DNA from: Anaerolineae bacterium UTCFX1
Lineage (GTDB): Bacteria; Chloroflexota; Anaerolineae; Anaerolineales; Villigracilaceae
DNA length: 64,000 nucleotides
Direction: 5' to 3'
NCBI GenBank assembly: GCA_002050275.1
Contig: MWTB01000021.1
Coordinates: 62,001 to 126,000 of the forward strand
Shown: piece after piece, positions 2,407 through 7,443 of the stretch
How positions within the stretch are numbered: position 1 is the stretch's first letter
How the letters are laid out: every line of letters begins with the position of its first letter
Translations under genes and position numbers: made by a program
The notes under the pieces: generated by a model
What the model saw: only the letters and a program-made list of their open reading frames with translations
Databases searched by the model: none
Told to the model about the DNA's origin: nothing

Positions 2407-3681
2407 TCATGTCTGCAAAATTTCTTTTACAGATTCAAAAACCGCTTCTCTCGTGACCTGAGCCTGCTCGCCCGTCGTCAGGTTTTTGACAACCACCAAG
2501 CCTTTCTCCGCTTCGTCGGGTCCCAACACCAGCGCGGCTTTCATCTTCATCTTGTCGGCGAATTTGAATTGCTTCGGCAGTTTCGTCGGCTCGGGGTAGA
2601 CCATCGCATTGAGTCCCGCGTTGCGCAACTCAGCCGCGAGCGCGTAAGATTGCGGCAGTAATTTTTCATCGAACACAGTGACCAACACCTGCGCGGGGCT
2701 AGGCTGAAACTCAGGAATGAGTCCCGCCTCTTGCAAGATGATCCCCACCACCACATCGCCCATAGCGAAGCCAACGCCAGATAATGGCTGTCCGCCGACA
2801 TCGGCAAGCAAATTGTCGTAGCGACCTCCGCCGAAGATGGCGCGTCGCACCGATCCGCTTGTATCGAACGCTTCGAAGACCGTGCCTGTGTAGTACAACA
2901 ATCCGCGCATGATGTTCGGATCGAACTTCACATATTCTTTGATGCCCAACGCTTCGAGCGCGGCGAAGGTACGAGTCAGTTCGTTGCTTTGCTTCCATAA
3001 GTCGAAATTACCGAGCAAGTCTTTCAAGCCATTGAGTTGTTTTTGATTCAACCCAAGTTCAAGCGCGTACGCATCCCACTTCGCGGATTCCATTTTCGCG
3101 CGGCGGTCAACGAGGTTCGACACATCCACGCGCTTGTCGGCTGGGATGTCGAGCGCGTCGAACTGCGATTCCATCAGGCGCCGATTATTCACACTAATTT
3201 GAGTCAGGCTGGGGCTGAGTCCGACCGAGCGCAGGAACGTCGCCCCCACCGCAATGAGCTCCGCATCCGCTTCGGGAGAGTCCACACCGAGCATATCAAT
3301 ATTCCATTGAAAGAATTCGCGCGTGCGTCCGCGTTGCGGCGACTCATATCTCCAAAACGGACCGAACGACCACCAGCGCACGGGGAAATTCAACTCGCCC
3401 TGCTTCGCCGCGATCATCCGCGCCAGCGACGGCGTGAGCTCGGGGCGCAGTGTCACCAAATCGCCGCCGCGATCTTCGAACGTGAACGACTGCTTCTTCA
3501 CGAGTTCTTCGCCCGATTTCGCCGCGTACAAGTCAATCGGCTCGATGAACGGGCCGTCCCACTCCTGATAGCCGAACATCTCAGACGCCGCGCGAACTTT
3601 TTCATAGATAAAGTTGCGCGCGAACATCTGCTCGGGGTAAAACTCGCGTGTGCCTTTGACGGAATTTATTTTGCTTGCCAT
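2407..3681 (-). CDS. hisS: histidyl-tRNA synthetase
   Basis: A 424-residue class II aminoacyl-tRNA synthetase that charges tRNA(His). Motif 2 is seen in the Arg-Tyr-Glu-Ser-Pro-Gln-Arg-Gly-Arg-Thr-Arg-Glu-Phe stretch. The histidine-binding region is seen as Gly-Leu-Leu-Tyr-Tyr-Thr-Gly-Thr-Val-Phe-Glu and Gly-Gly-Gly-Arg-Tyr-Asp. A C-terminal anticodon-binding domain begins near residue 330. The reading frame is open to 3882, but that part has no synthetase similarity and overlaps a small membrane-protein gene. The start at 3681 (Met-Ala-Ser-Lys) follows GGAG. It lies downstream of the lipoprotein island, and an extended -10-like TGATAAAAT overlaps the stop of the preceding small gene, which may give hisS its own promoter. 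Confidence 0.93.
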   Translation of the reverse strand: MASKINSVKGTREFYPEQMFARNFIYEKVRAASEMFGYQEWDGPFIEPIDLYAAKSGEELVKKQSFTFEDRGGDLVTLRPELTPSLARMIAAKQGELNFPVRWWSFGPFWRYESPQRGRTREFFQWNIDMLGVDSPEADAELIAVGATFLRSVGLSPSLTQISVNNRRLMESQFDALDIPADKRVDVSNLVDRRAKMESAKWDAYALELGLNQKQLNGLKDLLGNFDLWKQSNELTRTFAALEALGIKEYVKFDPNIMRGLLYYTGTVFEAFDTSGSVRRAIFGGGRYDNLLADVGGQPLSGVGFAMGDVVVGIILQEAGLIPEFQPSPAQVLVTVFDEKLLPQSYALAAELRNAGLNAMVYPEPTKLPKQFKFADKMKMKAALVLGPDEAEKGLVVVKNLTTGEQAQVTREAVFESVKEILQT

Positions 3682-3707
3682 GATGACTCCAATGTGCGGG
3701 AATTTTA

Positions 3708-3866
3708 TCATGCCTTCAAAATGCTTCTTGATAACACTGCCCCCTGCCTGCACTCGGGCGGGCAGGAGATCCAGATATAGTGCCGTCCCACCGTGATATG
3801 GCCAAGTGAATAGACCACGAGCCCAGTCACCACTACTCCTACACCTATCCACAACATCCGCCTCAT
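3708..3866 (-). CDS. small single-pass membrane protein, copy A
   Basis: A 52-codon ORF with one hydrophobic segment (about residues 5-22), then a short tail containing Tyr-Ile-Trp-Ile-Ser-Cys-Pro-Pro. It starts 52 bases after the lipoprotein gene at 3918. It is clearly related in position and sequence to the small ORF at 5110-5265: both begin Met-Arg, have a Val-rich helix, a Gly-(x)3-Val turn, and Trp-Ile-Ser-Cys before a Pro. The same GGTACGAATAA leader precedes both. No known family is recognised. The repeated pairing with a lipoprotein gene is the main reason to believe it is real. Confidence 0.55.
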   Translation of the reverse strand: MRRMLWIGVGVVVTGLVVYSLGHITVGRHYIWISCPPECRQGAVLSRSILKA

Positions 3867-3917
3867 TCTTTATTCGTACCACAAACAGTAGGGTGATAGC
3901 AACTAGTTCGGTGTGAA

Positions 3918-4967
3918 CTACTGACCAGCCCCAAAGAACTCCGTTCCCTCATGTAGCTCGACCATCTCGTCCCGACCCATCTTTATCTTTGGCTGCGCAA
4001 ACTCCATAAAGGCAGTACCTGAGCCGCTTTTCCATAGCGCCGTCTCGGGATTGGCCTCTGCCACCTGCTGGACATGTTGAATCCACCTCATCGCGTAGTT
4101 ATAAGCCGCGGCATTTTCACCAACCGAAAGAGTAGGGTCAGACATCAATATTCCGTAGGTACTCTCGTAATCTCCCTCATTAGGATCAGCCATTGCTTCC
4201 GTTTTGGTAAACATCCTTGCTATTCTCCACACCACCCTCCACACCCCTTCCTGGTCTTCGACTGGCTCTATTGCTTGTTTAATTCTTACATTACCCGTAA
4301 TCACAATCCAGCCACCCTCGTCTTTTACCTCGTGCCAGTCCTCGAGTCTTATCCCTACCTGGTTCGTGTCTATTAAGGCATCGTTCCCTATCCGCTCCCC
4401 GTCCACCTCCCACTCACTCGTCTTCTGCCACGCGCCTCCACTGTTGGATAGGCGGATATTGTCGGGATGCCACACCATTGCCATATCTTTGGCACTCTGG
4501 AGTGGTTGGGCAGCCAGCATCGCCTCATACTGGGCGAGTGTGCGGTACTTGCCCGGCTTATTGGGGTAAACACTCCAGGTATCAAGCCACGCGACCGTAT
4601 GGCTGAGTTTGGAGAAGATACTCTTAAGCTCTGGTACCGCCTCGGGGTTGAGGGTCAGGCACTGCACCGTTGCCCCCTCCGTCCCCTCCCAGAGACAAAG
4701 ATCTTCTGGTGCAACGCTGAGTCCATTCTTCTCCAGTGCGGCCGTCACCTCTGGCGAGAACGGCGGCGCGTTCACCTTAGCCGGTTCGGGCGTTGTAGTG
4801 CTTGTCGGCATTGATGTGGGAGCTTGGGTTGGTGTTGCGGTCATCAAGACTTCGGGAGTCTCGGAGGCTTCGGAAGTCTGAGGGATGACCGTCGCTTGTT
4901 GTGTGGGCGCGGCGCAGGAGGCTAAAAGAATCGTTGTAAGGAATAGGAATATTAATTTGCTTCGCAT
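3918..4967 (-). CDS. lipoprotein of unknown function, copy 1 (short form)
   Basis: A 349-residue predicted lipoprotein. Residues 1-18 are a signal peptide ending in the lipobox Leu-Ala-Ser-Cys (Cys18), followed by a Thr/Pro-rich linker to about residue 70. The rest is one domain of about 280 residues with a Cys pair near its start (Leu-Cys-Leu-Trp and Gln-Cys-Leu). I recognise no family. It is paralogous to the gene at 5308-7266: the signal peptide is identical at DNA level and the first 45 residues of the domain are nearly so, while the remainder is only about half identical. The start is fixed by GGAGAA 8 bases upstream. Base use is richer in C/T runs than in neighbouring genes, hinting at recent acquisition. 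Confidence 0.75.
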   Translation of the reverse strand: MRSKLIFLFLTTILLASCAAPTQQATVIPQTSEASETPEVLMTATPTQAPTSMPTSTTTPEPAKVNAPPFSPEVTAALEKNGLSVAPEDLCLWEGTEGATVQCLTLNPEAVPELKSIFSKLSHTVAWLDTWSVYPNKPGKYRTLAQYEAMLAAQPLQSAKDMAMVWHPDNIRLSNSGGAWQKTSEWEVDGERIGNDALIDTNQVGIRLEDWHEVKDEGGWIVITGNVRIKQAIEPVEDQEGVWRVVWRIARMFTKTEAMADPNEGDYESTYGILMSDPTLSVGENAAAYNYAMRWIQHVQQVAEANPETALWKSGSGTAFMEFAQPKIKMGRDEMVELHEGTEFFGAGQ

Positions 4968-4993
4968 GTTGTTCTCCATCAACAACGATTTTA
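4906..4993. repeat. 88-bp exact direct repeat, copy 1 (signal peptide and start region)
   Basis: This segment covers the ribosome-binding site, start codon, signal peptide and lipobox of the short lipoprotein gene. It is identical base for base to 7205-7292 in the long paralogue. Similarity drops immediately on both sides. Confidence 0.9.
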
Positions 4994-5020
4994 CCCGCCT
5001 CCTGCAAATAGATTAAAGAC

Positions 5021-5060
5021 AAAAGGATTCCGAAGTCTCTAACAACCTCGGAATCCTTTT
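5021..5060. terminator. bidirectional terminator between lipoprotein units
   Basis: Perfect 13-bp arms AAAAGGATTCCGA (5021-5033) and TCGGAATCCTTTT (5048-5060) around a 14-base loop. A T-run ends the hairpin on both strands. It directly follows the remnant reading frame at 5084-5161 and would insulate the short lipoprotein gene from the upstream unit. Confidence 0.75.
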
Positions 5061-5083
5061 ATTCCCTTCATACCGCCAAATTA

Positions 5084-5161
5084 CGCGGCGACTGTCTCAA
5101 ACGCCACGTTCAACCGCGCGGAAGCGGGCAGGCTGAGTTTATCTTCCACCGCCAACTGGGG
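5084..5161 (-). pseudogene. C-terminal remnant of an unidentified gene
   Basis: On the minus strand a 25-codon stretch ending Phe-Glu-Thr-Val-Ala-Ala-stop has the GCG/GCC-rich codon use of the host genes, unlike the lipoprotein genes on either side. It is closed upstream by a stop at 5168 and is followed by the terminator at 5021-5060, as a native gene end would be. I read it as the 3' end of a gene broken by the arrival or duplication of the lipoprotein island. The parent gene is not recognised. The call rests on codon use and position only. Confidence 0.35.
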
Positions 5162-5265
5162 TTACACGAGATCCAAACGAGTCTATTGCTTATCGCTACA
5201 CGCCCCCATGTGTACCAGACGACAATAATAAATATCAAGACAAGCGCTCCCCATATCCATCTCAT
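5110..5265 (-). CDS. small single-pass membrane protein, copy B (truncated or fused)
   Basis: A 51-codon ORF 42 bases after the long lipoprotein gene: Met-Arg-Trp-Ile-Trp, a hydrophobic helix to about residue 19, then Leu-Val-Trp-Ile-Ser-Cys-Asn-Pro. It matches copy A (3708-3866) through the Trp-Ile-Ser-Cys motif. Its last 13 or so codons read out of frame through the gene remnant at 5084-5161, so the native C-terminus appears to be replaced at the junction near 5160. Function unknown. Confidence 0.45.
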   Translation of the reverse strand: MRWIWGALVLIFIIVVWYTWGRVAISNRLVWISCNPSWRWKINSACPLPRG

Positions 5266-5307
5266 ACCTTATTCGTACCACATTTACACCCGCCTCTGCA
5301 ACTCCAC

Positions 5308-7266
5308 TTACTGTGGCTCTGCGTCAAAGAACTCTATCCCCTCTGCCATCTCATCCATGATCTCTTTATTGAGGATAACTTCCCCGCCTGCGGTAAACTC
5401 GAGGGTATCCCAATAGTTATCCACCACCGTAGTCTTGGGGTTCCTCCCAATACCATCTGCAACATCCCCTAGATAGTTCATTAGCTGATTCCACGCCCGA
5501 GCATTATCTGCGATAGGTAAAGATAAATCTGGAATTAAAATCCCATAATCGTTTACACCATCACCATCACCATCATATTTGATATTATCCGAAGCCACCG
5601 CAAGATCCGTAAACCTTAACACAACTCTAAACACCTGTTGTCCGTTGACTAATACCCCTTCCACAGGTACCAATTCCTGCTTAATACACAAACCAGCACC
5701 CAATCCAATATACCCGCCCTCTTGCTGTGCCTCTGTCCAGTCCACTATCTCCATCCCTATCTGGCTCGTATCTATGAGGGCGCCGTTGCCCACTCTCACG
5801 CCGTCTATCTCCCACTCACTCGCGGGCCTCATTACCCCCTCAGTCGGCAGTACCCCCTTGTTGTCAGGATGCCATACCATGCCTACATCCATGGCTAGTT
5901 GCATTGGCTTATTCTTGAGCATCGCCTCGTACGAGGCGAGCGTCGGGTACTTGCCTGGTTTCTTGTCCCTAACGCTCCAGGTACTAAGCCACCCAACTGT
6001 ATTATTAAGTTTTGATAGAGTCTGCTTGAGCTCTGGCACATTCTCGGGGTTGAGCGTCAGGCACTGCACCGTTGCCCCCTCCGTCCCCTCCCAGAGGCAG
6101 AAATCTTCTGGTGCAACGCTGAGCCCATTCTTCTCTAGTGCGGCGGTCACCTCTGGCGAGAACAGAGCCACATCTATCTTAACCTTGTACTTTTCCCACC
6201 CCGCTTGCCCCCACACCCACTGCTGTCCGTCCTCAGTTGTAACTACCTGCACTCCGCTACTGCCATCAATGCTTGAGACTGCAAGCCACGCCTCATCCGC
6301 AATAATCATCTGTTTATCCCCCACCGCCAACATCTGCGTACCCTGGTCTGCGAGCCTCGTCCACTCGTGAGTTGTTTGATCAAAAAGAAATATTCCGCTT
6401 TCGTTATCAATCCATAGCCTCTTATCCCGTGGCGAGTAGTGAATGTCTCTATCTTTTGCCTGATACTCACTCCCACCAGAGGCAAAAAATAAGATGTTCG
6501 TACTTTTATCCACACTTAGCTCATACGCTATACCGTACCCCTCTCCTGCCAAAAGAGCGGTTGGTCCCGAGAGACTACTTGTCCACTTCTCGCCCACTGG
6601 GAGCCACTCTCCTCGGCTACTTGGGTTATCAGTAAATGCCGACATGTAGCCAAGAAATTCACCCGTCTCTTTATCGAGTTGGACCCAGTACAGGGTAGCC
6701 AAATCCTCTGGGTTGTAGCTTACTACCTGCATACACACGGCATCTGTCGGGCAGGCTATCCCTGCGCGCACATACCGCACCACCTTACCATCAGGCGAGG
6801 CATACTCGATTATTGTCCCTCCTGGAGCAAGCGGTCCTTGGGGCGTGAGAACAGGCGCCTCTTCATCACCTATCTGCGCGGGCTGTGGGGCATATACAAT
6901 ACCGTTATCTTTAGCGTAATTTGCAACATTTCCGCCTTGTAAGACAGGTACAAGTCCATGCTGGCGCAAACTCGCGTATTTCTCTCCGTCCCAAGAAGCG
7001 GCTTGCAAGTCTTCAGGTAGACCCATCTCTTCAAAATTTCCAATGATCCATTGCGGGGGTGAATCAATCTCCGTTGACGAGGACAACTCCGCAATCGGAG
7101 CGCCCAGCGTGACGACGATCCGCGTCACCGGCGCGGGCTTTGATGTCGGCGTTGGAGTCAAGACTTCGGAAGTCTCCGAGACTTCCGAAGTCTGCGTCAC
7201 CGTCGGCGCGGCGCAGGAGGCTAAAAGAATCGTTGTAAGGAATAGGAATATTAATTTGCTTCGCAT
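5308..7266 (-). CDS. lipoprotein of unknown function, copy 2 (long form)
   Basis: A 652-residue predicted lipoprotein with the same 18-residue signal peptide and Leu-Ala-Ser-Cys lipobox as the copy at 3918, then a Thr/Pro linker. A middle region of about 290 residues is absent from the short paralogue. It is rich in short beta-type repeats with Trp and Gly (such as Lys-Arg-Leu-Trp-Ile-Asp and Gly-Ile-Phe-Leu-Phe-Asp), suggesting a propeller-like fold; this is an inference. The shared C-terminal domain starts near residue 365 and includes an acidic Asp-Gly-Asp-Gly-Asp-Gly segment that could bind calcium. The start has GGAGAA upstream. Probably cell-surface exposed; no family recognised. Confidence 0.75.
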   Translation of the reverse strand: MRSKLIFLFLTTILLASCAAPTVTQTSEVSETSEVLTPTPTSKPAPVTRIVVTLGAPIAELSSSTEIDSPPQWIIGNFEEMGLPEDLQAASWDGEKYASLRQHGLVPVLQGGNVANYAKDNGIVYAPQPAQIGDEEAPVLTPQGPLAPGGTIIEYASPDGKVVRYVRAGIACPTDAVCMQVVSYNPEDLATLYWVQLDKETGEFLGYMSAFTDNPSSRGEWLPVGEKWTSSLSGPTALLAGEGYGIAYELSVDKSTNILFFASGGSEYQAKDRDIHYSPRDKRLWIDNESGIFLFDQTTHEWTRLADQGTQMLAVGDKQMIIADEAWLAVSSIDGSSGVQVVTTEDGQQWVWGQAGWEKYKVKIDVALFSPEVTAALEKNGLSVAPEDFCLWEGTEGATVQCLTLNPENVPELKQTLSKLNNTVGWLSTWSVRDKKPGKYPTLASYEAMLKNKPMQLAMDVGMVWHPDNKGVLPTEGVMRPASEWEIDGVRVGNGALIDTSQIGMEIVDWTEAQQEGGYIGLGAGLCIKQELVPVEGVLVNGQQVFRVVLRFTDLAVASDNIKYDGDGDGVNDYGILIPDLSLPIADNARAWNQLMNYLGDVADGIGRNPKTTVVDNYWDTLEFTAGGEVILNKEIMDEMAEGIEFFDAEPQ

Positions 7267-7292
7267 GTTGTTCTCCATCAACAACGATTTTA
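7205..7292. repeat. 88-bp exact direct repeat, copy 2
   Basis: Identical to 4906-4993. It spans the ribosome-binding site, start codon and signal peptide of the long lipoprotein gene. Two protein-level paralogues that differ widely elsewhere share this block without a single change. Confidence 0.9.
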
Positions 7293-7318
7293 TCCGTCCT
7301 ACACAGGAATGAAGACCG

Positions 7319-7386
7319 TCCACGAATATGCACGAATAAACGAATTAGCGCGCCGACATTCGAGAATTCGTAGTCTTATTCGTGGA
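7319..7386. repeat. imperfect palindromic element with TCCACGAATA ends
   Basis: TCCACGAATA (7319-7328) and TATTCGTGGA (7377-7386) are perfect 10-bp complementary ends. The interior carries further CACGAATA, ATTCG and GAATTCG motifs. It lies between the divergent lipoprotein and methyltransferase genes and looks like a small palindromic dispersed element. Confidence 0.5.
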
Positions 7387-7402
7387 TGGTTCGCTGTCCA
7401 TT

Positions 7403-7443
7403 CAAAATTCAGCGGTTGAATTTTGGTTTATTTTTGGTATAAT
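7403..7443 (+). promoter_or_regulatory. methyltransferase promoter with overlapping palindrome
   Basis: TTGAAT (7416-7421), a 16-base spacer and a consensus TATAAT (7438-7443). A 9-bp inverted repeat, CAAAATTCA (7403-7411) and TGAATTTTG (7417-7425), overlaps the -35 box and is a candidate operator. The leader to the ATG is about 100 bases. Confidence 0.6.

Follow-up and report, generated by a model that had tools for sequence, protein, structure and literature searches.

Two tandem lipoprotein modules with apparent partner-gene stubs upstream of hisS in Anaerolineae bacterium UTCFX1

The window analysed here is a stretch of 64,000 nucleotides (nt) from Anaerolineae bacterium UTCFX1 (contig MWTB01000021.1, assembly GCA_002050275.1), whose genome, G000, comprises 2.78 Mb in 34 contigs. 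Upstream of hisS, its minus strand carries two lipoprotein genes, lipo1 and lipo2, each followed by a small open reading frame (ORF), in the order smORF1, lipo1, smORF2, lipo2. This locus very probably represents a module present twice in tandem, each copy partly broken, with stubs left by recombination; the intact module would encode a variable surface complex. Both truncation and mosaicism are evident in alignments with related genomes, by which smORF1 and smORF2 are identified as 5' stubs, the first third at most, of a longer membrane-protein gene.

The small ORFs and the full-length partner gene

The gaps between lipoprotein gene and small ORF are short (42 nt for lipo2-smORF2 and 51 nt for lipo1-smORF1), and both small ORFs have the GGTACGAATAA leader, a WISC motif and one hydrophobic segment each (17-residue Kyte-Doolittle mean 2.1-2.2). 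The original prediction described these two units of a lipoprotein and a single-pass ORF of about 50 codons correctly, but took the partner to be a conserved tiny protein. The order of lipoprotein gene and membrane-protein gene, with the same leader, is indeed conserved in G013 (metagenome-assembled genome H5_CFX6, JABTUU01) and G018, but the intact partner there has 160-162 amino acids (aa). In G013, lipoproteins of the window's type (type A) are followed by a 161-162-aa single-pass protein, the product of gene 2, and then by a Cys-rich exported protein, the product of gene 3. Full-length gene 2 stands beside type-A lipoproteins twice in G013 and twice in G018. For G018 this was seen at contig ends: two contigs with lipoprotein genes break off within the first part of gene 2, two other contigs begin there with overlapping sequence, and the joined ends give full-length partners of ~160 aa behind the GGTACGAATGA leader.

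The window copies end at different points of this gene. smORF2 and a small ORF on another G000 contig, C15, consist of the first 45-46 codons of gene 2 followed by an identical passenger that supplies CPLPRG and the stop codon; because they share this passenger-made C-terminus, they are counted as a single truncation. smORF1 arose separately, by a deletion that fused the first 35 codons of gene 2 to the part of the Cys-rich gene encoding CPPECRQG; its frame ends in DNA upstream of hisS. The Cys-rich remnant matches the intact gene at 23 of 26 nt (shuffled sequences reach at most 19), and the deletion amounts to roughly 0.75 kb relative to G013. Across copies, gene 2 breaks off at codon 8, 35, 45/46 or 63, or is absent: at the orthologous hisS site of G013, one lipoprotein gene is followed by only 8 codons and its neighbour by ~63, and the second C15 lipoprotein, one of four type-A units in G000, has no small ORF. 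The ORF of 8 codons and the unit without one are findings of the kind that the original prediction had itself named as its refutation. Because intact relatives are 160-162 aa long, breakpoints differ and one unit lacks the ORF, a length of ~50 residues is, by these comparisons, not a conserved property of the partner. Assembly artefact is unlikely as a general explanation, as the same architecture is found in the independent two-contig genome G013; the stub junctions rest on one assembly each.

Table 1. Features of the hisS-methyltransferase locus (window coordinates).
Feature	Position	Strand	Remarks
hisS	2407-3684	minus	
Whole inserted block	about 3663-7400		relative to the empty hisS-methyltransferase site of G018
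smORF1	3708-3866	minus	52 aa
smORF1 tail	3708-3741	minus	from DNA just upstream of hisS
Remnant of third gene (Cys-rich exported protein, CPPECRQG)	3742-3767	minus	26 nt, inside smORF1
smORF1 part homologous to gene 2	3762-3866	minus	codons 1-35
Leader of smORF1, GGTACGAATAA	3870-3880	minus	read as its complement, TTATTCGTACC
lipo1	3918-4967	minus	type A, subtype A3; 349 aa
Type-I leader cassette	4903-5130	minus	passenger, terminator-like hairpin (5021-5060), ribosome-binding site, signal peptide
smORF2	5110-5265	minus	51 aa
smORF2 tail (CPLPRG and stop)	5110-5130	minus	from unrelated passenger DNA
smORF2 part homologous to gene 2 (~161 aa)	5131-5265	minus	codons 1-45; splice of two alleles at about codon 15-16
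Leader of smORF2, GGTACGAATAA	5269-5279	minus	upstream region of the membrane-protein gene; read as TTATTCGTACC
lipo2	5308-7266	minus	type A, subtype A1; 652 aa; lipobox signal peptide, TSEVSETSEV/T-P stalk, ~310-aa extra region, ~290-aa C-terminal domain
Extra region of lipo2	6184-7122	minus	residues about 49-361, between stalk and the C-terminal domain shared with lipo1
Type-II leader cassette of lipo2	7202-7420	minus	dispersed TTCGTGGATGG-type repeat, ribosome-binding site, signal peptide
Methyltransferase gene	ATG at about 7553		upstream of lipo2, opposite orientation

Mosaic copies and exchange between sites

The mosaics among the copies show that modules have been duplicated, spliced and exchanged between fixed intergenic sites by homologous recombination in shared blocks. 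These blocks are the leader and stalk, the first ~85 codons of the mature domain and the first codons of gene 2. Within the window, lipo1 and lipo2 both begin MRSKLIFLFLTTILLASCAAPT; their DNA is 98% identical over 95 nt of 5' leader, ribosome-binding site and signal peptide, and their C-terminal domains contain two blocks of 80% and 70% DNA identity, all far beyond chance. A common signal peptide and C-terminal domain had been predicted, as had an extra region in one lipoprotein, which in lipo2 is about 310 rather than about 290 residues long. This region has ~85% DNA identity to two G013 lipoproteins, in one case joined to a different C-terminal subtype, A2.

Parent switches can be located within single genes. 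Compared 60 columns at a time, C15 lipoproteins 1 and 2 share 93-97% identity over the first ~240 columns; beyond these their identity drops to 35-75%, and an A1 gene of G013 (L042) is the better match to lipoprotein 2 (maximum chi-square 114; 0 of 2000 permutations as large). smORF2 carries the A1-linked allele at 22 of 22 informative sites and then at 1 of 40, where it matches the A2-linked allele (chi-square 58; 0 of 2000 permutations). Elsewhere, lipoprotein subtype and gene-2 allele mostly travel together (A1 in L042 and L043, A2 in L044 and C15, A3 in lipo1), an association that fits either co-functioning or simple linkage.

Further copies in G000 had escaped the original prediction: two tandem type-A lipoproteins on C15, before tsaD, and a second lipoprotein type, B, with a mature domain unrelated to type A and with genes 2 and 3 fused into one protein. 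Three type-B lipoproteins lie on C26 between ribF and a sulfotransferase gene, two of them with the leader and signal peptide seen in lipo1 and lipo2, and one lies beside folC on C17 without the shared leader. A DNA search of G000 returned exactly six leader cassettes, in two versions that differ upstream, on these two unrelated lipoprotein types. The type-I cassette, whose passenger is possibly the 3' end of an unassigned gene, has near-identical copies on C15 (99%) and C26 (89-90%), and the type-II cassette also has copies on both contigs. The C26 type-II copy includes an antisense stretch from the 5' region of the methyltransferase gene next to lipo2 (84% over 127 nt; L011 4372-4504), inside which the truncated partner protein there ends; this cassette was therefore probably copied from a hisS-methyltransferase-type locus.

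Compared site by site between species, unrelated lipoprotein types occupy the same chromosomal positions, often with one promoter/signal-peptide leader (neighbouring genes are named from their translations rather than from family searches). At folC, G013 carries type A and G000 carries type B. At the PSP1-like site, type A is present in G013 and type B in G020, and the gene found there in G000 and G024 is an unrelated SnoaL-like one. Between ribF and the sulfotransferase gene, type B is found in G000, G013 and G020, and in G018 a type-A partner gene stands next to the sulfotransferase gene. At the hisS-methyltransferase site, G000 and G013 both have type A, G020 has a remnant of a type-B partner and G018 is empty; at tsaD, type A is present in G000 and a toxin-antitoxin-like pair in G013, and G018 is again empty. 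In a non-exhaustive comparison by eye of filled and empty site flanks, no common termini or target duplications indicative of a mobile element with fixed ends were apparent. Near the empty hisS-methyltransferase site of G018 lies a different three-gene module (L079 405-2838), encoding a lipoprotein (353 aa), a single-pass protein (225 aa) and a Cys-rich protein (239 aa). In G020 a type-B partner runs on into a PIN-domain fragment (L050 2186-3337; Pfam E 2.8e-4, just below cut-off), apparently another case in which a broken partner has become joined to the gene beside it.

The stalk itself (TSEVSETSEV) is encoded by a palindrome pair, AGACTTCCGAAGTCT, at 7161-7193 and 4848-4880. This pair is dispersed in the genus, mostly between genes: five strand-matches were found in the window (none expected), and the pattern matches G000 14 times forward and 12 times in reverse (reversed control, none). 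These AGACTTCCGAAGTCTCnnAGACTTCGGAAGTCT pairs resemble dispersed palindromic repeats of the repetitive extragenic palindrome/bacterial interspersed mosaic element (REP/BIME) kind, which are likewise short and mostly intergenic; here, however, one pair is read in frame as the stalk, and another lies within the open frame of an undecaprenyl-diphosphatase-like gene (C26, L102 1436-1466).

The lipoproteins and their range

The signal peptides read from the translations carry a lipobox (LLASC or LLTSC), from which we infer that the lipoproteins are lipidated. The ratio of nonsynonymous to synonymous substitution rates (dN/dS) is 0.17-0.38 for lipoprotein pairs (0.26-0.38 for lipo2 against its relatives), and thus the lipoproteins are real, constrained proteins under purifying selection; all lipoprotein frames in G000 are open. 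As predicted, they match no recognised family: none reaches cut-off in Pfam or NCBIfam, and the lipo2 extra region, considered as a candidate beta-propeller, gave weak matches only in a PDB sequence search, Kelch-like proteins among them (E at least 0.085). The AlphaFold2 model of lipo2 reaches, at best, a predicted local distance difference test score (pLDDT) of 53-68 over residues 280-360. No description of these genes was found in open-access papers.

The mature domains were found only in three to four small-genome species of one Anaerolineales genus. No type-A mature domain was found outside G000 among the matches listed for a 396-genome sample of the class (G013 and G018 not being among them), and a family search with the leader included gave mature-domain matches in G000, G013 and G018 only. 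Among 400 genomes of the order, gene 2 was found in the same three, plus one weak, broken match; type B was found in G000, G013 and G020. No relatives were found in plasmids, phages or viral contigs. Unrelated pairs of lipoprotein and membrane protein in G024 (L051) and G018 (L079, three genes) suggest that the three-part plan may be wider than any one sequence family, an impression gained from few loci. Partner proteins of different types also end in a Cys-rich tail, GGGG-CP[PAG]ECRQGSxCGxGYSxAxGCSxxGPGGGCKxNQxCCSANxCGGG, for which no family is known (L099 3745-4368 in G024; L049 5760-5912 in G020; L098 3522-4526 in G013).

Proposed function, alternatives and known systems

When intact, the module comprises (1) a lipoprotein whose promoter/signal-peptide/stalk leader is shared and whose mature domain is lineage-specific, (2) a single-pass membrane protein of ~161 aa and (3), in one sister species, a Cys-rich exported protein. 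The lipobox, the Thr/Pro stalk, the N-terminal membrane segment and ectodomain of the partner, and the exported Cys-rich protein argue for a complex outside the cell, in which the lipoprotein would be displayed on its stalk with the gene-2 ectodomain beside it. We favour the view that the three proteins form a variable recognition or adhesion complex, rather than immunity genes or a decaying family. The shuffling of modules by recombination in the shared blocks would diversify the exposed domains, and the 5' stubs of gene 2 that it left, lacking the ectodomain, would no longer contribute. The idea that lipoprotein and partner act together at the cell surface, part of the original prediction, is thus still plausible, as their order recurs in two sister genomes and subtype and allele mostly co-travel; what has not survived is the partner's small size.

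Several results weigh against a variable surface complex with inert stubs. Gene 3 directly follows gene 2, for type A, only in G013. No family, PDB-sequence, defence or phage match was significant: in particular, the module proteins gave no significant defence, toxin or phage-protein match in PADLOC or PHROGs. The AlphaFold2 models were too poor to use (pLDDT 36.5 for lipo2 and 44.4 for the 161-aa partner, from alignments of 7 and 2 rows). Finally, the frames of the stubs are still open, and over 46 codons dN/dS between the C15 stub and intact gene 2 is 0.26, a value that mixes time before and after truncation; the stubs may thus retain some function.

Three other explanations were considered. 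One, which we think unlikely, is that in G000 the family has no present function, its modules having been spread by repeats and now eroding. Most partner genes are cut, and both lipoproteins at the hisS site of G013 are frameshifted (one match has 10 internal stops), but the open frames and dN/dS values of the G000 lipoproteins do not agree with decay, and leader, ribosome-binding site and signal peptide are intact in all six G000 cassettes. It is rather doubtful that the lipoprotein genes form an array of polymorphic immunity (or toxin-immunity) genes, in which every lipoprotein would protect against a variant secreted antagonist as in type VII esaG arrays: tandem non-identical paralogues recombining through blocks of high similarity follow the esaG/tipC pattern (PMC9484751), and types are swapped at fixed sites, but searches with toxin and defence models gave no match to any of the proteins, no toxin gene was seen beside the arrays, and membrane and Cys-rich partners of their own would be unusual for simple immunity genes. 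Two functional microproteins of ~50 residues, each paired with its own lipoprotein, are very improbable despite the conserved spacing and leader, the membrane segment and WISC motif in three G000 copies, the open frames and the dN/dS of the C15 stub, given the full-length relatives, the shared truncation of smORF2 and the C15 stub, the separate fusion in smORF1, the G013 orthologue that stops after 8 codons and the G000 unit without any small ORF.

Identification of the intact gene corrects a tempting microprotein call and exposes an orphan surface-protein family of a few species in one genus, with mosaic members swapped between fixed sites. If the variable complex that we favour is functional, an environmental bacterium that varies in this way is likely to be under strong pressure at its surface from phages, predators or competitors. 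More tentatively, a sludge-associated, free-living Chloroflexota genus might run multi-site surface variation, with whole modules (lipoprotein, membrane protein and Cys-rich protein) of unrelated types exchanged between fixed sites through a common promoter/signal-peptide/stalk 'adapter'; this would be diversity resembling antigenic variation outside any animal host, which might serve in defence against phages or predators, for instance, or in recognising partners within flocs. Because filled, swapped and empty sites have been compared site by site, wastewater time series can test the variation directly.

The closest parallel is with the tandem esaG and tipC immunity genes of type VII secretion, which recombine through near-identical blocks so that copies are spliced, expanded or deleted (Garrett et al. 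2022, PMC9484751). Tandem non-identical paralogues, shared homology blocks and crossover mosaics are common to both; the genes described here, in contrast, encode exported lipoproteins, are accompanied by membrane and Cys-rich partner genes of their own and lie at several separate chromosomal sites, and searches with the module proteins found no secretion-system toxin. A looser likeness is to the vls/vlsE antigenic variation of Borrelia, in which paralogous surface-lipoprotein sequences are diversified by segmental recombination (PMC11499132). The modules, by contrast, belong to a free-living organism and are not tied to one expression site. They also lack the silent cassettes without promoters that define the Borrelia system: every type-A copy, and every type-B copy that bears the leader, is equipped with its own start codon and signal peptide behind a leader of its own.

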